From the NCBI RefSeq assembly GCF_003417465.1, contig NZ_QVMV01000028.1:186001-250000 (forward strand): a stretch of DNA of 64,000 nucleotides. Reading direction: 5' to 3'. Of this stretch, positions 8,092-60,432 are shown in pieces. The notes beneath the pieces are model-generated. The model worked only from the letters and a program-made list of their open reading frames with translations. It searched no databases and was not told where the DNA came from. The DNA comes from Wenzhouxiangella sp. 15190. Its GTDB lineage: Bacteria; Pseudomonadota; Gammaproteobacteria; Xanthomonadales; Wenzhouxiangellaceae. Made by a program: the position numbers and the translations under genes. How positions within the stretch are numbered: position 1 is the first letter of the stretch; each line of letters opens with the position of its first letter.

Positions 8092-8105
8092 TTGATGCAC
8101 ATCAA
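8092..8105 (+). promoter_or_regulatory. FNR/DNR-type box upstream of norC
   Basis: TTGATGCACATCAA is a perfect match to TTGAT-N4-ATCAA, bound by FNR, ANR, DNR and NnrR regulators. nor operons are commonly controlled by NO- or oxygen-sensing members of this family. The box centre is about 42 bases before the norC start codon, so a class II start site would leave almost no leader although a strong AGGAGGG site lies at 8130-8136. The actual start point is therefore unclear. Confidence 0.8.
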
Positions 8106-8140: not shown

Positions 8141-8596
8141 ATGATCGAGGGTCTCAGCCGTAACGCCGCGCGCAACATCTTTCTGGGCGGCTCCATCATT
8201 TTCTTCATCATTTTTGTTGGCCTGACGGCCCACAGTCACTACTACATCGTCACCGAATCCACCGATCACGAAGGGCTGACCGAGTCGGTCAAGCTCGGAA
8301 AGCACGTGTGGGAGAAGGAGTCGTGCATCAACTGCCACAGTCTGCTCGGCGAAGGCGCGTATTTCGCGCCCGAGCTCGGCAACGTATGGCTGCGCTACGG
8401 CGGTGCGGACAACCCGGAAGCCGCGCGCCAGGGGATCAAGTCCTGGATTCGCCTACAGCCGCTGGGCGCTCCGGGCCGCCGTCAGATGCCCTCCTACGAT
8501 CACCTGAGTGAAGAGGAACTGGACGCCCTGGTCGATTTCTTCCGCTGGACCAGCGAGATCGACACGCAAGACTGGCCACCGACGATTTCGGGATAA
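8141..8596 (+). CDS. norC: Nitric oxide reductase subunit C
   Basis: NorC is the membrane-anchored monoheme cytochrome c that feeds electrons to NorB for reduction of NO to N2O. The 151-residue protein has one N-terminal membrane helix (~12-30), the heme site CINCH (62-66) followed by the diagnostic SLLGEGAYFAPELGN, and a likely axial Met in RRQMPSY. The C-terminal DTQDWPP segment is also typical. The start is set by an AGGAGGG site. It is the first gene of norCBQD and lies behind an FNR-type box. Confidence 0.95.
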   Translation: MIEGLSRNAARNIFLGGSIIFFIIFVGLTAHSHYYIVTESTDHEGLTESVKLGKHVWEKESCINCHSLLGEGAYFAPELGNVWLRYGGADNPEAARQGIKSWIRLQPLGAPGRRQMPSYDHLSEEELDALVDFFRWTSEIDTQDWPPTISG

Positions 8597-8609
8597 GAGG
8601 GAGAGCCGA

Positions 8610-9965
8610 ATGAAATATCAGACCCAGAAAGTCGCCTATCCGTTTTTCATCGCCGCGCTGGCCCTGTTCGCCGCACAGGTACTGTTCGGACTGCTGGCCG
8701 GAGCGGTGTATGTGTGGCCGGAGTTCATGGCCGAGGCCATGCCCTTCCACATCATGCGCATGAGCCACACCAACCTCCTCGTCGTATGGCTGCTGATCGG
8801 CTTCTTCGGCGCCACCTACTACCTGCTGCCCGAGGAAGCTGAATCCGAACTCCACAGCCCGATGATCGCCTATATCCAACTGGGCATCTTCGTCTTCGCA
8901 GGCGCCGCGGCCCTGGTCGGCTACCAGTTCGGCATCCACGAAGGCCGTGAATTTCTGGAACAACCGACGTGGGTCAAGATCCTGCTGACCATCTCGTTCC
9001 TGATGTTCCTCTACAACGGTTCCCGTACGCTGCTGGCGGGCCGCCGAACGGCCATTTCCATGATCCTCATGGCCGGCCTGTGGCTGGCCGCCATCTTCTG
9101 GCTGTTCTCCTTCTACAACCCGGCCAACCTGTCGCTGGACAAGATGTACTGGTGGTATGTCATCCACCTCTGGGTGGAGGGTGTCTGGGGCCTGATCATG
9201 GCCTCGCTGCTGGCCTACCTGCTGGTCAAGATGTCCGGCGTCGACCGCGAGATCATCGAGAAGTGGCTGTACGTAATCGTCGGCCTGGTGCTGTTCGCCG
9301 GCCTGCTCGGCACCGGTCACCACTACTACTGGATCGGCACGCCCGCCTACTGGCAGCCGCTGGGCAACATCTTCGGCGCGCTCGAGGTGTTGCCACTGTT
9401 CTCGATGGTGATCTTCACCTTCTATATGTTCTGGCAGGGCAGCCGCAATCATCCCAACAAGGCGGCGATTCTCTGGACTCTCGGTTGTGCGGTCATGGCC
9501 TTCTTCGGCGCCGGCGTGTGGGGGCTGATGCACAACATGTCCTGGGTCAACTACTACAGCCACGGCACGCAGGTCACCGCCGCCCACGGCCACCTCGCCT
9601 TCTACGGCGCCTACGTGATGCTCAACCTGGCGGTCATCACCTACGCCATGCCACAGCTCCGCGGCAAGCTGCCCTACAACCAGATCCGCAACATGTGGAG
9701 CTTCTGGCTGATGACCGGCGGCATGGCCTTCATGACCTTCACCCTGACCTTCGCCGGCGTCGTCCAGACCCACCTGCAGCGCGTCATGGGCGAGAACTAC
9801 ATGACAACGCAGGACCAGATCTGGGTGTTCTACGCCATGCGCTTTGGTGCCGGCATCATCGTGGTCATCGGTGCGCTGATCTTCCTGTGGGCCACCCTCG
9901 GCAAGCCGCGCGAGCAAACACCCGGCGGTGCGTCGCACATGGCCGTCGGCAGCGCGGATGAGTGA
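8610..9965 (+). CDS. norB: Nitric oxide reductase subunit B
   Basis: NorB is the catalytic subunit of the cytochrome c-dependent NO reductase, a heme-copper oxidase relative with heme b, heme b3 and non-heme iron. The 451-residue protein carries HIMRMSHTNLLVVW, the HLWVEGVWG segment with the iron-ligand His and Glu, the HHYYWIG pair, and HGTQVTAAHGHLAFYGAY with heme ligands. About twelve membrane helices are expected. The ATG at 8610 follows AGAGGGAGA and lies 14 bases after norC. The norQ start overlaps its stop. Confidence 0.95.
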   Translation: MKYQTQKVAYPFFIAALALFAAQVLFGLLAGAVYVWPEFMAEAMPFHIMRMSHTNLLVVWLLIGFFGATYYLLPEEAESELHSPMIAYIQLGIFVFAGAAALVGYQFGIHEGREFLEQPTWVKILLTISFLMFLYNGSRTLLAGRRTAISMILMAGLWLAAIFWLFSFYNPANLSLDKMYWWYVIHLWVEGVWGLIMASLLAYLLVKMSGVDREIIEKWLYVIVGLVLFAGLLGTGHHYYWIGTPAYWQPLGNIFGALEVLPLFSMVIFTFYMFWQGSRNHPNKAAILWTLGCAVMAFFGAGVWGLMHNMSWVNYYSHGTQVTAAHGHLAFYGAYVMLNLAVITYAMPQLRGKLPYNQIRNMWSFWLMTGGMAFMTFTLTFAGVVQTHLQRVMGENYMTTQDQIWVFYAMRFGAGIIVVIGALIFLWATLGKPREQTPGGASHMAVGSADE

Positions 9966-48804: not shown

Positions 48805-49094
48805 GAATACAGCAAGATTGTAGCCAACCTAGATTGTCCCCGCGAACATGGCGTTACCCGCTGCCGATCAGCACCGACTGCAGGAAAATACCGGGCAACA
48901 AGAGGCGACCGAAGGGGCCTTTCGTCATGCGCCGATCTGCGGTCCGGATGCAGGCTTGAAGCCCTGAAACCAGGTCGGATCCATGGCGCCAGTCCCGTCA
49001 ACGAATCAATGTCGCCCCACCCCACACGGCACGACCGGACAACGCCGACTCTGATACATTGACCGAGTCTCGGATTGTTCTCGTGAGGGGATTC
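48805..49094. other. Spacer without recognised gene
   Basis: Between the small minus frame and the ferric-reductase-like gene I see no coding signal, repeat or clear operator. The two divergent promoters must lie here. No FNR-type box was found. Confidence 0.5.
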
Positions 49095-50405
49095 ATGTCA
49101 GCTGGAACCGCGCACCGCCTCGTCTGGCTGGTCGCCCTGCTACCGTCGCTTTTGTTCCTGGCGACGCTTGCCCCCGGGGATCTCTCATCGATGGGGTCGG
49201 CCCTCAATACCATCGGCCGACTGGCGGGCGTGGCGGGCCTGGCGATGCTGTTGATGGCGGCGATACTGAGCGCGCGCATCCCGGGTGTCGATCGGCCATT
49301 CGGCGGACTCACGCGCCTTTGGCGCACTCATCACTTCCTCGGGGCAGGGTCGCTCATTCTGCTGCTGGCTCATCCCCTCCTGCTGGCTTTCTCGGCGGGC
49401 ACTACCAGCCTGTACGCCGCCAGAACAATGCTCTTCCCGCCCCTGTCCGACCTGGCCAGCTGGAGCGGCTGGGCAGCACTGATTCTGATGATGCTCTTTC
49501 TTGCCCCTAGCTTCTCGTTCTTCGGCCACCCCCGTTTCGAACGCTGGAAGAAGCTTCATCGCCTGGCCGGGCCGGCCGTGGCGCTGGCACTGATCCACGG
49601 CTTCTGGCTCTCGCGCGGCCTTCCCCAATGGCTCAACATCACGGTCTGGTCGGTATTCGCGATGGTGGCCCTCGGCGCCGTGACGTGGCGCTTCGTGTTT
49701 TCGCGCCGAATCGGGCGACGGGGCTGCCGGGTCAGCAAAGTCGAGCGGGTGGCCAATAACGTCGTCGAACTGACACTGAGCCCCGAACACGGCAAGTTCG
49801 CACACGAGGCGGGCAATTTCGTCTACCTAGCCCCATACGACCCCGGTCTCGAAGCCGGGTATGGCGAGGAGCATCCCTATACGCTTTCCTCGTCGCCCCT
49901 GGAGCCCGCATTGCGCATCGCGATCAAGGACCTGGGAGACGCCAGCCGGGCGATCCAGTCGATCCGGGAAGGTGCGCATGCAACGATCGAGGGTCCGTAC
50001 GGCCGCTTTTTTCCCAATCCGCGCGCCGTGACGGATCCGGAATTGTGGGTCGCTGGCGGCATCGGGATCACCCCGTTCCTGGCCCGCATGCGTCTTCTGA
50101 AGCAACTTGGGAAGCCTGCCGATGCATGCCTGATTTTCTGTGTCCAGGACGAGGCGCGTGAATTGTACGGGCAGGAGTTGCGCTCCCTGGCATCCAGCCT
50201 GTCGGGATTCAGGCTGAATTTCCATCACTTCTACCGCGAGGGCCCCATCACGCGCGAATACATCGAAAAAGTCTGTCCGGACATGGCACAGCGGTTGCTG
50301 CATGTGTGCGGTCCGCGACCGCTCAAGGACCTCGTCGTCCAGCATGCCCGAGCGGCCGGGATACCGGTCTCGAGTATTCACTCCGAAGAGTTCGAACTGC
50401 TATGA
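49095..50405 (+). CDS. Ferric-reductase-like membrane flavo-oxidoreductase
   Basis: The 436-residue protein has about six helices with paired heme-ligand histidines (RTHHFLGAGSLILLLAHPLL; KKLHRLAGPAVALALIHGFW) and a FNR/NOX-type C-terminus with an FAD segment GEEHPYTLSSSP, EGPYGRFFPN, the NAD(P) site VAGGIGITPFLARM and the final CGPRPLKDLV. This is the ferric reductase/NOX architecture, moving electrons from NAD(P)H across the membrane to heme b. The acceptor is unknown. The ATG at 49095 has GAGGGG upstream. It overlaps the cytochrome b5 gene by four bases. Confidence 0.85.
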   Translation: MSAGTAHRLVWLVALLPSLLFLATLAPGDLSSMGSALNTIGRLAGVAGLAMLLMAAILSARIPGVDRPFGGLTRLWRTHHFLGAGSLILLLAHPLLLAFSAGTTSLYAARTMLFPPLSDLASWSGWAALILMMLFLAPSFSFFGHPRFERWKKLHRLAGPAVALALIHGFWLSRGLPQWLNITVWSVFAMVALGAVTWRFVFSRRIGRRGCRVSKVERVANNVVELTLSPEHGKFAHEAGNFVYLAPYDPGLEAGYGEEHPYTLSSSPLEPALRIAIKDLGDASRAIQSIREGAHATIEGPYGRFFPNPRAVTDPELWVAGGIGITPFLARMRLLKQLGKPADACLIFCVQDEARELYGQELRSLASSLSGFRLNFHHFYREGPITREYIEKVCPDMAQRLLHVCGPRPLKDLVVQHARAAGIPVSSIHSEEFELL

Positions 50406-50779: not shown

Positions 50780-50786
50780 AATGCAA

Positions 50787-50818
50787 ACCGCCCGGCCGCA
50801 AAAGAGCGACCGGGCGGT
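50787..50818. terminator. Hairpin between convergent transcripts
   Basis: ACCGCCCGG (50787-50795) pairs with CCGGGCGGT (50810-50818) across a 14-base loop containing AAAAGAG. It lies eight bases after the b5 stop and is followed by TCTGTTC. It may end transcription from both sides. Confidence 0.6.
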
Positions 50819-50906
50819 CTGTTCACCATTGGGCCCGTGGCGTAATGCGGGCTTGGATGACGGTCGACGGCGGACTGGCCGCCGATTCCAGGGAGTCCTT
50901 ACGGCC

Positions 50907-51539
50907 TCAATCGAAGCGCTTGGGACCCTCGCTGGCATAGTATTCCGCCAGCGCCTTCATATCCTCGTCACTGAGATCCGCCATTTCGGGCGCCATCTTT
51001 TCCGGCTGCCAGCGCTCTTCATCACGGTAGTACTTGAACTGATGCATCAGGTAGTGCTTCCACTGGCCGGCCAGAATTCCGGCATCGTCAAGTGCCAGAG
51101 CCCCGGCATCGGTATGGCAACGATCACATTTGGCCTCGTGAATGGAAGCGCCCTGGCTCACCAGTTCCTCGTCGACTTCCTGTTCGGCCGGAGAGAAAGG
51201 CTGGGACGCATAGTGGCCGGCGGCCTCGATCTGCTCATCCTCCGACATTGCGTCGGCCAGCGCACAGTGGTTTTCGGCGCCATCCTCGGCCTCTTCCTCG
51301 AAGTAGGAATCAGCACACGGCCTGGCTTCGGCCGCAAAAATCGCAAGCTGGTTCTCCAGAAAATAATCCGAGGCCCCGGCAATGATCGGAACCGTGCTGT
51401 CATCGCTGATGCCATCCTTGCCATGACAGGAAGTACAGGATTCCACTGAATCCGGCGCTTCGGCCATGGTTACGCCTGCTCCGGCGAGGAAAACCGTAGC
51501 GAGGGCGAACTTCACTGAATGACTGAACATGCTTCTCAT
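50907..51539 (-). CDS. Diheme cytochrome c, c4 type
   Basis: The 210-residue protein has a signal peptide ending at TMAEA and two heme sites, CTSCH (35-39) and CDRCH (138-142). Candidate axial methionines lie in DAMSED and PEKMAPEMADLS. The size and two-domain layout match cytochrome c4. Two further cysteines (RPCADS, NHCALA) could form a disulfide. GGAGGAGG sets the start at 51539. It is the last gene of the conduit operon and could be a soluble periplasmic electron carrier for it. Confidence 0.87.
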   Translation of the reverse strand: MRSMFSHSVKFALATVFLAGAGVTMAEAPDSVESCTSCHGKDGISDDSTVPIIAGASDYFLENQLAIFAAEARPCADSYFEEEAEDGAENHCALADAMSEDEQIEAAGHYASQPFSPAEQEVDEELVSQGASIHEAKCDRCHTDAGALALDDAGILAGQWKHYLMHQFKYYRDEERWQPEKMAPEMADLSDEDMKALAEYYASEGPKRFD

Positions 51540-51603
51540 GAGACCTCCTCCAAATTTTGGGTCACACGCCATATCGGAGTGTGTAAGACTTATTTTACCA
51601 CTG

Positions 51604-51619
51604 AAAGCCGTGGGGCTTT
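51604..51619 (-). terminator. Small hairpin after the MtrB-like gene
   Basis: AAAGCC and GGCTTT (51604-51609 and 51614-51619) pair around a four-base loop two bases beyond the MtrB-like stop. No T-run follows on the minus strand, so transcription may continue into the diheme gene. Confidence 0.35.
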
Positions 51620-51621
51620 AC

Positions 51622-53769
51622 TCAATCAGCCGAAAACCGGTAGCGCAGCATCACGTTGAAAACATGCACTGTGCCGTCCAGCGGTCGCTGCCCCAGACTC
51701 AACAGGGTCGGCACCGTATCCGGCGCAACGTCATCGCGGAAGAAATCGTCTTCAGTGAGTTTGCCGACAAGATAGCCGAAACGCAGGTTAAGGCGTTCTC
51801 CGAGCTCACGCTCTGCAGAAGCTTCCAGTGTCATGCGGCTGGTTTCCAGCGTCGGAAACGGGGGTGCCGAACCGCGCTTTTGGACCTCGATATCTCCATC
51901 GGCCGATGCGTAGGTGAAATCCAGCCTGCCTTCCACCCACTTGCCCGGGAGATCGCCGAAATTCAAGCCAATGCCGGCCGTGCGGAAGTCGTCACTCTGC
52001 CGGGCTTCCCAGGGGGCGTCTTCGATGTTGTCGGCCCCGAGAATAGTCGCGTCCAGCGACTCGAAGGCCACGAACGCATGCGCGGTGATGTCACTGGAAA
52101 AGGTGGCTGAAACGTCCAGGCCATAGCTTCTGGCCCGTCCGTCACTGAGACCGATTTCGGTATCGGAAAATTCCTCGTCGGCAAACTCGGCGAACAGGCT
52201 GGCAGCCACGTTCTCGCGCAGGGCATAGTCAGCGACGAAGCGCAGTGCATCCCGGTCCTTTTCCGCGAAATGGAAGCGTCGCAGGCTGGGATTGACCTGC
52301 GGGCCGAGACGAGCCGGATCGAGATCGTTGTTGCGCTCCTCACGACTGGCTTTCACATTCACGTTCAGGCGGGACACGGGCGTCGCCCGTATCTTGAAGG
52401 AATAGAGATTGGTATCCGTGTTCTCGACCTCCTGCAGACTACGCTCCATTCCCTTGTGTGTCGCCGAGGCTGTTACCTTCAAGTCCGAGGCCACGCGATA
52501 GTCGAGCGTTGCATTCATGCTGGTCCGTTCGTAACTGTACGGCTCGTAGGCACGTTCGTCCATCACGAACGTGTCCGAAACGACCTGGACGAATGAATCG
52601 ACAGGGGTCTTGTTGTCGCGCTCATCGTAGCGGAACTGCAGCTTGGCCCGGAGCCGGTCGGTCAGGTTGCTCGTGGCCCGCAAGTTCGCTATCTGCGTAT
52701 CCACACGCCCGTCGAGATCGCTTCGGGGCAAACTCGGGTTTGCCAGGCTCGTATTGAGTGTCGGCGCCAGGAACTGCTCGTCCTGCTCGCTTCGGCCGAC
52801 AGCCACGTGCCCGGAAAGCATCAACCACTTCGAATAACGCCAGGACCCGGAAAGCATGAACTGGTGAAACTGGTTCTCGGGTGGCTGCGCCAGTTCGCCC
52901 AGATCGGCCCCATTGATTCCGGCAAAGGGATTCTGCCAACGCACCGACCGGTTGTCATTGTCGAAACGCGAGAGGTGATAGGCCGCTTCCAGCTGCCAGC
53001 GGTCCCTGACATAGCCGACCGCCGCCTCAACCCGGGTGGTTTCGTAATCGACGGGTGATGCCAGTTCGGCGGCCCGAAAGATAAAGCTCCCACCCCGAAT
53101 CAGGTTGCCTTCCTTGCGGGTCTGCTGCACATCCACGCGATACCGCCACGGGCTCTTGCGGTTCACTTCCAAAGCCAGCCCGAGCGTTTTCCGCTTGTGC
53201 CGGATATCGACGCCGTGCAGGCTGCCGGCGAGTGCCGTCATTTCATCCGTCGTGCCGCCGCGGACCCAGTCGGCGGGCAACGTCTGATTCGCCGTGCCTG
53301 CCCCCTCGAATATCGTCCGGGTATCACTCGTATCGAGATAGGGCGTTTCGTCGTAATCGAGACTCACACTGTAGCTGCCCTGCCGTCCGCCCTCGACCGA
53401 CAGCGTGCGGCTATCGAGGCCGAGCCGTTCTCCATATAAATCCAGGTAGCGAGCATCCTCCGTGCGATAGCGTAAATCGACGCCGGCCGCTCCATAGACA
53501 CCCTCCTGTTCCAGGCCACGATAGTTGCCGAAATCGAACAGGTCATCGGAGACATAGCCGGCTCCCAGCAGCACGGAACCGCTCAGGCCATAAACGAACG
53601 GACAATCCTCACAAATCCACTCACTGGTATCGGGTCCAGTCGACTCCGACTCCTCTTCTTCCTGCGACGTAGCCCGGTCCTGGCCCGAAACCGACATACC
53701 CATCAGAAGGAAACCGATGAAGGCGACGGCCCTGACTTGAAACCTCCGATGGCGTTGACTGGCTGTCAT
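51622..53769 (-). CDS. MtrB/PioB-family outer-membrane beta-barrel
   Basis: The 715-residue protein has a signal peptide ending near VSGQD and the CEDC pair at residues 53-56, the C-x-x-C motif seen near the N-terminus of MtrB. The rest alternates strands with many aromatic ends, for example SYSVSLDYDETPYLDTSDTR and RLNLRFGYLVGKL, and ends VMLRYRFSAD. MtrB-type barrels sheath an MtrA-type decaheme cytochrome so that electrons cross the outer membrane. It lies 20 bases after the decaheme gene and GGAGAG precedes its start. Confidence 0.88.
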   Translation of the reverse strand: MTASQRHRRFQVRAVAFIGFLLMGMSVSGQDRATSQEEEESESTGPDTSEWICEDCPFVYGLSGSVLLGAGYVSDDLFDFGNYRGLEQEGVYGAAGVDLRYRTEDARYLDLYGERLGLDSRTLSVEGGRQGSYSVSLDYDETPYLDTSDTRTIFEGAGTANQTLPADWVRGGTTDEMTALAGSLHGVDIRHKRKTLGLALEVNRKSPWRYRVDVQQTRKEGNLIRGGSFIFRAAELASPVDYETTRVEAAVGYVRDRWQLEAAYHLSRFDNDNRSVRWQNPFAGINGADLGELAQPPENQFHQFMLSGSWRYSKWLMLSGHVAVGRSEQDEQFLAPTLNTSLANPSLPRSDLDGRVDTQIANLRATSNLTDRLRAKLQFRYDERDNKTPVDSFVQVVSDTFVMDERAYEPYSYERTSMNATLDYRVASDLKVTASATHKGMERSLQEVENTDTNLYSFKIRATPVSRLNVNVKASREERNNDLDPARLGPQVNPSLRRFHFAEKDRDALRFVADYALRENVAASLFAEFADEEFSDTEIGLSDGRARSYGLDVSATFSSDITAHAFVAFESLDATILGADNIEDAPWEARQSDDFRTAGIGLNFGDLPGKWVEGRLDFTYASADGDIEVQKRGSAPPFPTLETSRMTLEASAERELGERLNLRFGYLVGKLTEDDFFRDDVAPDTVPTLLSLGQRPLDGTVHVFNVMLRYRFSAD

Positions 53770-53789
53770 GACTGCTCTCCACGCTCCGG

Positions 53790-54764
53790 TTAACGGTTCA
53801 GGATGGCTCCTGAAGGATGATTCGATCCGTGCACCTGTGAATGGCAGCTCAGGCAGCTGCCCGACATCAGGAAGTTGGACGGCTGGCCGGACGGAAGGTC
53901 ATCGCCCGTTCGCCCGATGCTGGGGTGACCCATTCGCGAGTGGCACTGCTGACAGAGCAGCGGTGCACGCCGCGTCAGCAGATCCGGATTGTTCGAGCCA
54001 TGCGGCTGATGGCAGGTCGTGCAGTCCTCGGTAACCGGGGCATGCTCCCACAGAAACGGTCCGCGCATTTCCGCGTGACACTGGAAGCAATTCTGGTTGA
54101 TCGTCGGGCTGTCCAGCATGGCTTCGTTGAGGCCCCCGTGAGGTTCGTGACAGTCGGTGCAAGCCATTTCGCCAAAGCGAATCGGATGCCCGTATGCACG
54201 GTGGACTTCGGCACGCTGTTCGACATGGCAGTCCATGCATACCTGGGGCTGGCTCGATGTCACGGTTACCGGATCGCGTCGCGTGTGAACGCTGTGGCAA
54301 TCGGTGCAAGCCAGTTTCTGCGATTCGTGTACGCCTCCGTCCCAATCGTGTTGCTGTTCGCGGTGGCATCCAAGGCAGGTCTCGTTCTCGCGCGCTTGCG
54401 ACCACGGAGAATTGGGCCCGAAAGCGGGCATCGGTGGCCGTTCCTGGCCAAAGCGCACACGGCCGGCATGGTCGCCGCCGGGGCCGTGGCACGCCTCGCA
54501 CTGGTTGCCTCCGAACGGTGTCCGCTCATCGGCCTCGACGCCGTGCGGCCCTTCGAAGATGGCCATCAAATGAGCGCTTTCCTCGTCCCCGTGGCAGCTC
54601 AGGCAGGAGTCCGCACCATCGCTGGTATAGGCGGGAAGAGGTTCTGCATCATCCTCCCCCTCCTCGGCCGCTCCAACCGGACCGAACATCGCCAGGCCGA
54701 CGACACCCGCCAGCAAGATGACGCCGGCAAAGGCAAACTCAAAAAATCTCCGGCAATTAGCCAA
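53790..54764 (-). CDS. DmsE/MtrA-type decaheme cytochrome c
   Basis: The 324-residue periplasmic protein has a signal peptide ending at GAAEE and ten C-x-x-C-H sites: CLSCH, CEACH, CLGCH, CTDCH, CMDCH, CTDCH, CFQCH, CTTCH, CQQCH and CLSCH. Length and heme count match MtrA/DmsE, the electron wire inside the MtrB barrel. The start is the TTG at 54762-54764 with AGGAG seven bases upstream; the longer frame from 54845 would include the hairpin at 54808-54838 and has no signal peptide at its start. Confidence 0.9.
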   Translation of the reverse strand: MANCRRFFEFAFAGVILLAGVVGLAMFGPVGAAEEGEDDAEPLPAYTSDGADSCLSCHGDEESAHLMAIFEGPHGVEADERTPFGGNQCEACHGPGGDHAGRVRFGQERPPMPAFGPNSPWSQARENETCLGCHREQQHDWDGGVHESQKLACTDCHSVHTRRDPVTVTSSQPQVCMDCHVEQRAEVHRAYGHPIRFGEMACTDCHEPHGGLNEAMLDSPTINQNCFQCHAEMRGPFLWEHAPVTEDCTTCHQPHGSNNPDLLTRRAPLLCQQCHSRMGHPSIGRTGDDLPSGQPSNFLMSGSCLSCHSQVHGSNHPSGAILNR

Positions 54765-54807
54765 TCCCTGTCTCCTGAATATCGACGGTTTGCCCGCTCT
54801 TGAACAT

Positions 54808-54838
54808 CCGACCTGCCGGCTCGAGGCCGGCAGGTCGG
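54808..54838 (-). terminator. Perfect 13-bp hairpin between the OmcA-like and decaheme genes
   Basis: CCGACCTGCCGGC (54808-54820) pairs perfectly with GCCGGCAGGTCGG (54826-54838) with loop TCGAG. It lies 18 bases beyond the OmcA-like stop. Without a T-run it is more likely a processing or partial-termination site that sets the ratio of the two cytochromes. Confidence 0.65.
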
Positions 54839-54855
54839 CAGTCACGCTCTATCCG

Positions 54856-57318
54856 TTAGTCGTCCAGACCGTGTGCTTCTTCCACCGAAACGAACCCGTC
54901 AGCGCCGTGGCAGAAGCTGCAGTTCTCCGGGCCGGCCATGTCGATTTTTGCCTGCGTATCCGGATCGGAGAACGGATCGGGGTTCAGCAGGAACGCATTG
55001 CCGAAGGAGAACCCGCTGTCACTGCGCACGGACATGTGGGTCGTCGCCACTTCGGAGTCATGGCAAGACGAGCACACCGCTGCCGCCGCACTAGCGTTAT
55101 TGTCGATGGTCGGGTCGGACGCGGCCGCATCATCCGGCGCATATCCCGTGGCACCGAAGCGGCTTCCCGCGATGACCGTGGCATTGGAACTCAGCGTCGT
55201 CGCCAGCACGTTGTCGCCGAGCGGAAGGTTGTAGGTATCTTCCATGTGGCAGGCCTGGCATTCGGCCGGCGAGCGCGGATAGCCGACATGGCCGTAGTCG
55301 TGCGGTGTACCACCAAAACCGTACGCGACATACGGCATCTCGCGCGCCGCGCTACCGTGAATGGCATGAATCATGTACTTGAAGTCGACGGTGTTGTCTT
55401 CGAGAAAATCTGCAGCTTCAAGGTTCTCGCCATTGACCATTCCGTCGGGATCGATCGGTCGCCTGAACAGATCGGTCGCGTTCGGGTTGTGGCAGGCCAC
55501 GCAGGCTTGCGGATTGTCGGTGCGGTTGCCGCCGTGGAAAGCCAGCCCGTCGTTTTCACCGTGACAGTCCTGGCACTTGGCCATATCGACGACCATGCGC
55601 CGGGGCATCGCTTCGGCATCGTTGATCGCAAATGCCTTCGTGGCCGAGGTCACCGGAATGTTGTCGTCATAGGCACCATCGTGGTCGAAGTCACCGGCCG
55701 GATGACCCTCAAGGACCACCGTGCCGGAACCCAGACCGTCAGTAGTGATGGGAATACTCACTGGCGAAGCAATCGCCGACGTGTCGACCGTGTAGGTGCC
55801 GTCACCGTTGTCGGTCACACCCATTGGCAGCGTACCGCTACCATCGGACAGGGGGACACTGGCCGGTTGGGCAACCGGCCGACCGGTCACGCTCGTACCC
55901 TGGCCGTCGGCGACATTGGTGTAGTCGGCATTCGGCCAGGCGATATCCATGTTGACACTGGTGGCACTGCCGGTGAACTCGGGATCGCTGGCGATATCGT
56001 ACGGTGCATCGTCGTTGGTCGGATCGGTAATCGAGAATGTCACCACCGGTGATTGACCTTCGGCCGTGTTGGAGATGTCCAGAATGTTGTAGGCGATCCG
56101 CCGGGCGGCCGCCTGGGAATCGATCACGTGATAGGCGAGATTGCCCTGCAGGAATCCGGTCTCGGAATGGCATGCGACACAGGTGTCGTTCGGCTGGGCC
56201 AGACCGATGTGGTTGCGGTTGGCATTGGTCAAGCCGCTTTCATCAAACGCCAGATCATCGTGGCAGGAAGCGCAGACTTCGGCGGTCGCCCGATTGTCGA
56301 CCCAGTCGGCCTGCGGCGTTTCGGGATTGTCGGGATCATGGCAGCTCGCGCAGTTACGCACATCCTGCGGAAACGCCACATGGCTGAAGTCCTGCGGCGG
56401 CGAACCGAAATTCTCGCAGCCGTAACCACAGAACTCATAGGGCTGGGTGAGATTCTCGCCGAAGTGAATCTTGTGAATCATCACCGAGAATTCCATGTTA
56501 CTGCCGGTGCCACCGTCGAACGAATCCGGCTGGTGACAGGAAACGCACTGGTCGACGTGCTGCCGAGGCCCGCCGTGAAAGGCGAACTCCTCGCTGCCGT
56601 GACAGGATGCGCAGTCTTCCTGCGTGATGAGCTTGCGCTGCTCGATGCCGCTTGTATCGCCGGTCGATGGCTGAATGTCAAAAGTGGTATCGCTGCCCGC
56701 CACCTCTTCACCGAAGACCTCGGCGTCGCGAATTTCCATACCCACTCGATGCGTCAGCGTGGGTTCAAACACCACCTCGGATATGCTCTCGAGATCCTGG
56801 TCGAAGGTGAACCGATAGTCACCATCGCCCAGATCTTCGAGCATGCCGTTCGAATAGGTGCTCCCCTGCACGGCTTCCACACCTTCATCATCGGCACGCA
56901 CATAAGTCGACCAGTTCCGGGTCTCTCCGTTGCTGCCGGGGATCAGTTTGTTGACGGTAAAGCTGAAACTGACGTTTTCACCCTGCTCCAGCCCGTCAAT
57001 GCCCAGGCCGAATTCGTCGACAACCCGGAAGTCGATGACCGGCTCTCCATCCAGACTCGCGCCCGTAATGACCGGAAAGAGGTGCTCCGGCGCCGGTCTT
57101 GTCTTCACTTCATGCGATTCGAGCTCGCTGTTTCCAATACTGTTCCCATTACCGAATCTCTCGGCAATTTCGGGCGGCATCGATTCAAAGAACCTGCTTA
57201 GATCTTCATCACTCTTGTCAGCAGCGAAGGAGGCGGGCACAAGAAGAGCCCCCAGCATCAACCCCGCAAGAATCACGCCGCAACGTCGTGCGGTTCTCAA
57301 ATTCGGATAGTCGTGCAT
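54856..57318 (-). CDS. OmcA/MtrC-family decaheme cytochrome c
   Basis: The 820-residue protein carries ten C-x-x-C-H sites in two groups of five: CASCH, CVSCH, CASCH, CASCH, CVACH, then CQDCH, CVACH, CQACH, CSSCH, CSFCH. The groups are separated by beta-rich domains with NGDGTYTV-type strands, which is the MtrC/OmcA layout. HKIHFGEN and HAIHGSA are the conserved extra histidine segments. The signal peptide ends LLVPASFAADK and has no lipobox cysteine, unlike Shewanella MtrC and OmcA. GGAAGGAGAG fixes the start at 57318. It should be the terminal, cell-surface reductase for minerals or other external acceptors. Confidence 0.9.
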   Translation of the reverse strand: MHDYPNLRTARRCGVILAGLMLGALLVPASFAADKSDEDLSRFFESMPPEIAERFGNGNSIGNSELESHEVKTRPAPEHLFPVITGASLDGEPVIDFRVVDEFGLGIDGLEQGENVSFSFTVNKLIPGSNGETRNWSTYVRADDEGVEAVQGSTYSNGMLEDLGDGDYRFTFDQDLESISEVVFEPTLTHRVGMEIRDAEVFGEEVAGSDTTFDIQPSTGDTSGIEQRKLITQEDCASCHGSEEFAFHGGPRQHVDQCVSCHQPDSFDGGTGSNMEFSVMIHKIHFGENLTQPYEFCGYGCENFGSPPQDFSHVAFPQDVRNCASCHDPDNPETPQADWVDNRATAEVCASCHDDLAFDESGLTNANRNHIGLAQPNDTCVACHSETGFLQGNLAYHVIDSQAAARRIAYNILDISNTAEGQSPVVTFSITDPTNDDAPYDIASDPEFTGSATSVNMDIAWPNADYTNVADGQGTSVTGRPVAQPASVPLSDGSGTLPMGVTDNGDGTYTVDTSAIASPVSIPITTDGLGSGTVVLEGHPAGDFDHDGAYDDNIPVTSATKAFAINDAEAMPRRMVVDMAKCQDCHGENDGLAFHGGNRTDNPQACVACHNPNATDLFRRPIDPDGMVNGENLEAADFLEDNTVDFKYMIHAIHGSAAREMPYVAYGFGGTPHDYGHVGYPRSPAECQACHMEDTYNLPLGDNVLATTLSSNATVIAGSRFGATGYAPDDAAASDPTIDNNASAAAAVCSSCHDSEVATTHMSVRSDSGFSFGNAFLLNPDPFSDPDTQAKIDMAGPENCSFCHGADGFVSVEEAHGLDD

Positions 57319-57360
57319 CTTCGCTCTCCTTCCTTCCATTAAAGTTGTTTCAACCACCGA

Positions 57361-57966
57361 TCACATATCCTCGGGCAGCTCGTGGGCAACGCCCTTGTGG
57401 CAATTGATGCAGGTCCTGCCCGTTGCTTCCCGGTATTCGGCCGAATGTCGGCGCTGGGCCTGGCGATCCTGCAGGTCTTCCGACATCGCCTCGTAGCTGT
57501 GGCAGCTGCGGCATTCACGCGAATCGCTTTCTTCCAGACGCGCCCACACCCGTTCGGCCATCTCGAGCTTGTGTGCGTCGAACTTTTCCTGGGTATCGAT
57601 CTTGCCCATCAGGTGTCCGGGCACCTCGACCAGACCGGCGCGGATCTTGGTCGCCATCTTGGGGAAGAAGGCCTTGGGAATGTGGCAGTCCTTGCACTTG
57701 GCGCGCACGCCACTGCGATTGGAGAAATGGTGGGATTCGGTGTAGTCGGGGTAGACGAACGATTCCATTTCGTGGCAGGCAGTACTACAGAATTCGTTGG
57801 TGCTGGTATACGCGATGACGGAATTGAAACCCGACCAGGCGATTATGCCGATGATGATCCCGCCGATCAGAAGTGTGCCGAAGGCGTAACGGCTGCTCGG
57901 GCTACTGAACGCCCGCCATGTACGTCGAAATATCCCCGGGCGGTCGTTATTCTCGTTGTCTGGCAT
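57361..57966 (-). CDS. NapC/NirT/CymA-like tetraheme quinol dehydrogenase
   Basis: The 201-residue protein has one membrane helix (~28-47) and four heme sites: CSTACH (60-65, a C-x3-C-H variant), CKDCH (91-95), CRSCH (152-156) and CINCH (186-190). The sequence TNEFCSTACHEME and the end KGVAHELPEDM match the NapC/NirT/CymA family, which oxidises quinol at the inner membrane and passes electrons to periplasmic cytochromes. As first gene of the operon it would feed the MtrA-like wire. AGGAG lies before the ATG. Confidence 0.9.
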   Translation of the reverse strand: MPDNENNDRPGIFRRTWRAFSSPSSRYAFGTLLIGGIIIGIIAWSGFNSVIAYTSTNEFCSTACHEMESFVYPDYTESHHFSNRSGVRAKCKDCHIPKAFFPKMATKIRAGLVEVPGHLMGKIDTQEKFDAHKLEMAERVWARLEESDSRECRSCHSYEAMSEDLQDRQAQRRHSAEYREATGRTCINCHKGVAHELPEDM

Positions 57967-59187: not shown

Positions 59188-60432
59188 TTACAGATCCTGC
59201 CGGCACACCGGCATCGTCATGCAACGGCAGCCGCCGCCGCCGCGCGAGAGTTCGGCGCCACCGATGGTCACGACCACGCGATCGTCGGCTTCGATGCGAC
59301 GTCCGCCCTCGATCAGTTCGGGGGCATCGATCACGCTGAAACCGGCCCGGTCGAGCGCCTCGAGGGTATAGCGATTATGCCGGTAACCCAGGATCTGGCC
59401 CGGGCCGAAGGCGAAGAAGTTGGCGCCGCTCGCCCACTGCTCGCGCTCCTGATGGAATTCCTGCTCGCCACCGCAATTGATCGGCGCCAGATCGATGCCC
59501 AGGGCCGACAACGCGCCAAGCACGTCGCGATACTCGGTAATCGTCGCGTCCGGGCCGCCGTTGAACGCACAGTGAAAGGCACGCGAGCGGCTGGGCCCGG
59601 TAATCAGCGGCGGAAAGACCACGCACTTGTCGTGGTCGACCATGGTGAAGATCATGTCGAGATGGATCGTCGCCCGCGTCTTGGGAATCTCGACGACGAT
59701 GAAATTGCTGATCGGCCCCTGCGAGGCGATCGATCGCATCAGCTGATCGATGCCGGCCAGGGAGGTTCGCTCGCTGCAGCCGATGACGGCGAGATCCTTG
59801 CGGATCACCAGCAGGTCGCCGCCCTCGATCGTGACTTCCGAGTTGCGGTTTTCGGTGCCGTCGAAATAGAACCCGGAGGAATGAAAGTCCGGGTGATACT
59901 TGAAAACGGCCTTGAGCAGCAGCGCCTCGGCGGTGCGCGCACGAAAAGCCATGGAGCCGATGATGATGCGATCATTGACGCACATCGTCGCGTCACGCGT
60001 GAAAAAGGTATTGGGCAGCGGCGGAATGGCCCAGCGCGACGGACTGAGGTACTTTTCGAGACTGATCGGCTTCTTGGGGGTGCCCTCGACAAGCTGCCGG
60101 GCCAGGGCCTCGGCCGGCAGCGCCAGCAGTTCGTCGCGCACCTCGGGGGAGTCGAACAGATCGCACATGGCCTGCACCAGGGCCTCGCACACCCGGCCGT
60201 CCTCGAGCACCTCCACCAGCAGGTCGTGCAACTCGATCGTGTGGCACACCTTTTCAAGCACACCCTTGAGTTGCCGGTGCTCGCCGGTAGCCAGCTCGAG
60301 ATTGAGAATATCGTCGTAGAGCACTTCGGCCGCCGTCTGCGGCGTCATGTTCTCGATTTCCTGGCCCGGCGAGTGGACAACCACGCTCTTGAGCGGACCG
60401 ATCTCGGAATTGACGTTGATATCAATGGACAT
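59188..60432 (-). CDS. arcA: Arginine deiminase
   Basis: ArcA hydrolyses arginine to citrulline and ammonia, feeding anaerobic ATP synthesis through ArcB and ArcC. The 414-residue protein has FTRDATMCVNDRIIIGSMAF, EGGDLLVIRKD, ATIHLDMIFTMVD with active-site His and Asp, and GGGGCRCMTMP with the catalytic Cys at 404. Length matches bacterial ADI. arcB and arcC are not in the window. Ammonia release could also counter acid. No FNR box was found upstream, and no strong ribosome site precedes the ATG. Confidence 0.93.
   Translation of the reverse strand: MSIDINVNSEIGPLKSVVVHSPGQEIENMTPQTAAEVLYDDILNLELATGEHRQLKGVLEKVCHTIELHDLLVEVLEDGRVCEALVQAMCDLFDSPEVRDELLALPAEALARQLVEGTPKKPISLEKYLSPSRWAIPPLPNTFFTRDATMCVNDRIIIGSMAFRARTAEALLLKAVFKYHPDFHSSGFYFDGTENRNSEVTIEGGDLLVIRKDLAVIGCSERTSLAGIDQLMRSIASQGPISNFIVVEIPKTRATIHLDMIFTMVDHDKCVVFPPLITGPSRSRAFHCAFNGGPDATITEYRDVLGALSALGIDLAPINCGGEQEFHQEREQWASGANFFAFGPGQILGYRHNRYTLEALDRAGFSVIDAPELIEGGRRIEADDRVVVTIGGAELSRGGGGCRCMTMPVCRQDL

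Follow-up and report, generated by a model that had tools for sequence, protein, structure and literature searches.

The 64,000-nucleotide stretch of the Wenzhouxiangella sp. 15190 genome analysed here (contig NZ_QVMV01000028.1, positions 186,001 to 250,000; hereafter the window, whose coordinates are used unless another locus is named) carries five minus-strand genes for multiheme cytochromes and an outer-membrane barrel, which probably constitute an MtrCAB-type electron conduit whose expression is induced without oxygen. The set comprises a quinol dehydrogenase (cymA), the surface decaheme mtrC, the periplasmic decaheme mtrA, the barrel mtrB and a periplasmic diheme cytochrome gene (Table 1). 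These apparently form one operon, with cymA first and the diheme gene last, and with intergenic gaps of 3, 10, 20 and 49 bp.

Identities were assigned by Pfam and NCBIfam profile searches. For cymA, mtrC, mtrA and mtrB the family scores are decisive, and the three adjacent genes mtrC, mtrA and mtrB each exceed the curated cut-off of the respective MtrCAB family. The initial annotation had placed five cytochrome and barrel genes on the minus strand at 50907-57966; all five open reading frames (ORFs) are found there, and the family models agree. Its heme motif count of 4+10+10+2 is borne out for MtrC, MtrA and the diheme cytochrome and fails for CymA, which has three CXXCH motifs and one CX3CH, giving a strict CXXCH count of 3+10+10+2. 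These counts exceed the shuffled expectation by about two orders of magnitude (MtrA has ten, where shuffling gives 0.08 on average). No relative was found in the viral contigs searched.

Table 1. The operon and features around it in window coordinates. Scores are in bits, with cut-offs in parentheses; aa, amino acids.
Feature	Position	Strand	Score or remark
cymA, NapC/NirT-family membrane tetraheme quinol dehydrogenase, 201 aa	57361..57966	-	PF03264 218.7 (NapC/NirT 24)
mtrC, OmcA/MtrC-family decaheme, 833 aa	54856..57357	-	TIGR03507 456 (209)
mtrA, periplasmic decaheme, DmsE/MtrA family, 351 aa	53790..54845	-	TIGR03508 292 (192)
mtrB, outer-membrane barrel, MtrB/PioB family, 715 aa	51622..53769	-	PF11854 464 (23); TIGR03509 447 (240)
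pdsA-like periplasmic diheme cytochrome c, 221 aa	50907..51572	-	best NCBIfam model PdsA 132 (330)
Intrinsic-terminator-like hairpin, 16 pairs (12 GC)	50784..50821	-	tail moderately T-rich; directly 3' of diheme gene
Exact FNR/ANR-type box TTGATCTATATCAA	58091..58104	-	124 bp upstream of cymA start; consensus TTGAT-N4-ATCAA
MenA-like UbiA-superfamily prenyltransferase, 309 aa	58255..59184	-	UbiA 105.9; MenA models at most 119
Ferric-reductase-like membrane flavoprotein	49059..50405	+	converges on operon; also in G024
Cytochrome b5-domain protein, N-terminal membrane segment	50306..50779	+	paired with ferric-reductase-like gene; also in G024

Conduit proteins and likely regulation

Both decahemes carry the ligands of ten bis-histidine hemes. 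In MtrC, ten CXXCH motifs and ten distal histidines are conserved in an alignment of 39 family members, and the ten CXXCH motifs of MtrA are accompanied by at least ten conserved distal histidines in an alignment of 31. An AlphaFold2 model of MtrC built from 39 sequences (predicted local distance difference test, pLDDT, 77.6; predicted template modelling score, pTM, 0.77) has the OmcA/MtrC fold: its 16 best matches in the Protein Data Bank are all OmcA, MtrC, UndA or MtrF, the best being OmcA (E=1.9e-30, template modelling score 0.57-0.59 by query length). A first model, built from eight sequences, was discarded (pLDDT 42).

In the MtrA and the MtrB tree alike, the proteins of eight genus members make up a single clade (100/100 each time). 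This clade sits among the other MtrCAB sets from outside Shewanella and is separate from both Shewanella MtrA/MtrD and DmsE/DmsF, the reference rows for the latter being Shewanella loci which also hold a DmsA-sized lipoprotein-type ORF. Several outside rows are long-branched, and their exact order is unsure. MtrB possesses the C-x-x-C pair noted initially (CEDC, residues 53-56); the pair is not diagnostic, as DmsF proteins have it too, and it carries no weight between MtrB and DmsF.

CymA is encoded by the sole NapC/NirT gene recovered in a whole-genome search. Its first heme motif is CSTACH (CX3CH; residues 60-65, window 57772-57789). Among ten aligned CymAs this form was seen in the window protein only, and the nearest relative, the 67% identical CymA of congener G024, has CTSCH at the same site.

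The diheme cytochrome is classed as PdsA-like only. PdsA is its best NCBIfam model, at a score below the cut-off, and the model was rejected as proof of identity: it picks up many dihemes of the class (110-180 bits), including ones outside the mtr-linked set. In the tree the protein falls in a set of nine (99/97) together with the mtr-linked Vibrionaceae diheme from Photobacterium, and at least eight of the nine are situated in mtr or cymA loci. Two congener loci without a PdsA-like gene, L015 and L016, have two small tetraheme cytochromes between cymA and mtrC (L015:7492-7815 and L015:8050-8406; likewise in L016), which suggests a swapped periplasmic shuttle.

The operon is likely induced anaerobically, as suggested by the exact FNR/ANR-type box upstream of cymA; by base composition, about 0.013 exact matches are expected per 90 kb. 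One further exact box is located in the window (8092-8105), 5' of a NorB-like heme-copper oxidase gene (8508-9965) which is followed by NorQ- and NorD-looking ORFs, and a third in a hydrogenase locus on the same contig. Boxes with zero to two mismatches are found upstream of cymA in G012, G014, G017 and G024, and in Photobacterium a box with a single mismatch lies between mtrC and pdsA. No box was found at cymA in G025, and G013 has only a weak two-mismatch site. Matches to sigma-70 promoters are no more frequent than by chance.

Anchoring of MtrC and supply of quinone

Judged by its signal peptides, the outermost cytochrome of the genus has lost its lipid anchor. The signal of the window MtrC is of the Sec type, ends in ASFA before AD, and lacks the lipobox of the lipidated Shewanella-type MtrC. 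The same holds for all eight MtrCs of the genus (window, G024, G025, G013, two in G012, G014 and G017), each of which has a Sec-type signal and a cleavage site without cysteine; in one G012 copy, truncated by the end of the contig, the cleavage region can still be seen. Outside the genus a lipobox is present in all 43 homologues that could be judged (38 by pattern, three by eye and two in further loci), two more rows being unjudgeable. Since the genus MtrCs are one clade, the loss counts as a single event and not as eight, and the form without lipobox has evidently persisted, as it is common to seven diverged genomes. The alignment further reveals a conserved RFF..MPPE segment at about residues 55-64, replacing the usual glycine-rich linker. 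Shewanella MtrC is no longer attached to the cell once its lipid site is replaced (PMC9732548), Shewanella MtrF and OmcA without lipobox are exported to the medium, and type II secretion is the export route of the surface cytochromes (PMC6929479). The Wenzhouxiangella genome contains two GspD secretins over the cut-off, and no second OmcA/MtrC-family gene was found in it.

On gene content, the genome cannot make menaquinone, the quinone associated with Shewanella CymA, de novo by a known route. Neither MenD nor MenB over the cut-off (best MenB-like protein 157 against 343 bits), nor MqnA, was found in the 99.8% complete assembly. MenD is clear in Shewanella controls and in the congeners G013 and G025; it is not clear in several further genomes with mtr, including that of Halioglobus, so lack of the pathway is common outside Shewanella.

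A MenA-like prenyltransferase gene beside cymA touches on this question. The protein is below the NCBIfam MenA cut-offs and matches MenA, not UbiA, of Escherichia coli. With a gap of 3 bp to the upstream arginine deiminase-like gene and of 288 bp to cymA, it is likely co-transcribed with the former rather than with cymA. The arginine deiminase-like gene (59188-60432; below the ArcA cut-off) adjoins the UbiA gene here and cymA in G024. MenA-like genes were found in the window and in loci L015-L019, L063 and L145, some of them in genomes that lack a menaquinone pathway. Four arrangements can be told apart: that of the window; that of the congener loci, where the gene directly follows mtrB (G012, G014 and G017) or stands between the hydrogenase and mtr genes (G013 and G025); that of Halioglobus, with the gene flanked by cymA and mtrA; and that of G152, in which it adjoins cymA and is fused to a PPOX domain. 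We treat this linkage as no more than a lead: all the proteins are below the MenA cut-offs, and the gene was not seen in five other mtr loci and is missing at the operon of G024. Co-occurrence of UbiA-family genes with mtr across genomes was set aside as evidence, such genes being numerous and the search for them loose. The MenA-like protein is no more than a candidate functional partner.

Proposed electron path and competing explanations

We infer the electron flow, its outward direction, the quinone, the acceptor and the attachment of MtrC as follows. Under oxygen limitation CymA would oxidise membrane quinol, most likely ubiquinol or a quinone from the MenA-like enzyme with a scavenged ring, given that a known de novo route to menaquinone is lacking. 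The PdsA-like diheme would carry electrons over the periplasm to MtrA, from where they would cross the outer membrane inside MtrB and exit via the ten hemes of MtrC to a metal oxide, humics, a soluble chelate or another cell. With no lipid to hold the MtrC of this genus, docking to MtrAB would have to retain it, perhaps by way of the conserved N-terminal segment; alternatively, part of it would be released. With ubiquinol as donor, acceptors of high potential would be favoured, Mn(IV) or chelated Fe(III) for instance. The initial proposal that the set suffices in principle for transfer from the quinol pool to the cell surface stands in part: the MtrCAB conduit is complete, with a quinol dehydrogenase and a shuttle candidate, but a Shewanella-style supply of quinol is weakened by the missing menaquinone pathway.

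Several points weigh against an outward conduit of this kind. Without menaquinone genes, outward transfer to low-potential iron oxides is unfavourable. By analogy with Shewanella, whose MtrC and MtrF come off the cell once the lipid site is removed (PMC9732548, PMC6929479), MtrC might not stay attached. The CX3CH motif of CymA may mature badly, leaving three hemes, and the diheme cytochrome is under the PdsA cut-off. Conduits of similar type can run inward (PMC8805035). The MtrCAB group to which the genus has been assigned, Group 3, had no validated case (PMC8805035).

The missing lipid anchor raises the explanation that MtrC is secreted and acts in soluble form or in the matrix rather than as a cell-bound terminal reductase, which would be compatible with the rest of the conduit. 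The signals without lipobox in all eight genus MtrCs, the type II secretins and the export of lipobox-less MtrF and OmcA by Shewanella (PMC6929479) speak for it; mtrC nevertheless shares its operon with mtrAB, the conserved N-terminal segment suggests a docking role, and the genome yielded no further gene of the OmcA/MtrC family. We regard secretion as somewhat unlikely, though deserving serious attention. A mainly inward flow, for which MtrC would draw electrons from another cell or from Fe(II) or Mn(II) and deliver them by way of MtrAB, the diheme and CymA to ubiquinone, with oxygen or nitric oxide as the final acceptor, seems unlikely, though it likewise deserves attention. Lack of a menaquinone pathway, with ubiquinone as a plausible acceptor, would suit it, as would the NorB-like gene behind its exact FNR box and the reversibility of such conduits (PMC8805035). 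The gene set, however, is that of the reducing Vibrio pathway, the operon has no MtoC/MtoD-type genes, and the FNR box implies induction without oxygen.

Decay of the conduit, with CymA impaired by its CX3CH motif and MtrC mislocalised, could account for the occurrence of that motif in the window CymA alone, for the lipobox loss and for the patchy presence of mtrC in the genus (8 of 30 genomes). Against this, none of the five reading frames is broken, the ligands have been conserved, G024 retains the operon (62-84% identity), and the MtrC form without lipobox is shared by the seven diverged genomes; decay thus appears very improbable. Respiration of dimethyl sulfoxide (DMSO), iodate or tetrathionate with reused MtrAB-like parts can draw on the fit of MtrA to the NCBIfam 'DmsE family' model and on the CxxC common to DmsF. 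On sequence grounds an origin of the DMSO type (DmsEFAB) was rejected, as no DmsA/DmsB-type reductase gene is present in or beside the operon and as the phylogeny suggested as a check on the initial annotation places both MtrA and MtrB outside the DmsE/DmsF clade; the presence of the decaheme MtrC likewise opposes it, and we consider the chance of such a respiration negligible. Within the preferred outward conduit, the MenA-like enzyme might supply CymA with a dedicated quinone, made by prenylating a naphthoquinone precursor that the cell scavenges or some unknown ring, while the lipid-free MtrC is held to the cell by its N-terminal segment; this combination is speculative and, taken as a whole, rather improbable.

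Neighbouring genes and relation to known systems

The mtr genes of the genus are repeatedly found near [NiFe]-hydrogenase genes. The large subunit gene directly adjoins mtrC in G012, G014 and G017, and in G013 and G025 the two are no more than about 5.5 kb apart; in the window genome the subunit gene is about 10.5 kb beyond cymA, outside the window. The locus at G000:C26:254504-256249 (L050:4501-6249) holds the large subunit with an Isp2/DsrK-like protein, a small subunit, a maturation protease and hyp genes. Of 30 genus genomes, 8 have mtrC and 7 the hydrogenase, with 6 having both (Fisher p=3e-4, without correction for relatedness). Hydrogen is suggested as one source of electrons by this link. 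The ferric-reductase-like and cytochrome b5 pair converging on the operon could be a further electron entry into the periplasm. A GET3/ArsA-like (BagA/BagB-like) ATPase gene pair is situated near cymA in the congener mtr loci L015-L019.

The operon probably belongs to the Group 3 gammaproteobacterial MtrCAB systems, in which Baker et al. (2022) included Wenzhouxiangella, Thioalkalivibrio and Marinobacter (PMC8805035). That study reports pdsA beside mtrCAB throughout Group 2 and in most Group 3 Gammaproteobacteria, and nearly every MtrCAB group in it has one or more members with a CymA homologue; the likeness to Group 3 extends to CymA in some clusters and to the C-A-B order in related members. 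The same five components make up the CymA-PdsA-MtrCAB pathway of Vibrio (Group 2), described for Vibrio natriegens according to the passage in PMC9315368 that cites Conley et al. (2020). The composition, which the initial annotation had taken for unusual, is thus a known one. Photobacterium sp. DA100 likewise has CymA, PdsA, MtrC, MtrA and MtrB, with pdsA-cymA divergent from mtrCAB (identities to the window proteins are 41% for CymA, 21% for MtrC and 31% for the diheme), and other gammaproteobacterial loci hold part of the component set. Unlike the Vibrio type, the window has a single operon, a non-lipoprotein MtrC and a genome without a menaquinone pathway.

With the MtrCAB/MtrDEF/OmcA systems of Shewanella the operon shares the decaheme-barrel-decaheme architecture, the fold and the axial ligands. 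It differs from them in its single MtrC without OmcA paralogue, the inclusion of cymA and a shuttle in the operon, the missing lipid anchor and the separate tree branch of MtrA and MtrB. DmsEFAB has homologous MtrA-like and MtrB-like parts and a CxxC in its barrel, but the window operon lacks molybdenum reductase subunits, includes a surface decaheme and falls in a separate clade.

The system is thus of a known kind, set apart by the genus-specific change in MtrC anchoring and by the quinone question. The main text of the Group 3 study is silent on lipidation, ubiquinone, UbiA and hydrogenase (PMC8805035), and in the literature searched we found no description of the lipobox loss in MtrC of the genus, of the hydrogenase-mtr linkage in it, or of an absent menaquinone pathway together with a MenA-like gene beside cymA. 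The operon adds a near-complete genome to Group 3, a large branch of MtrCAB without a tested member. If it is active, a conduit of this type can run without the lipid anchor needed for attachment of MtrC in Shewanella, and without menaquinone made by the cell itself.

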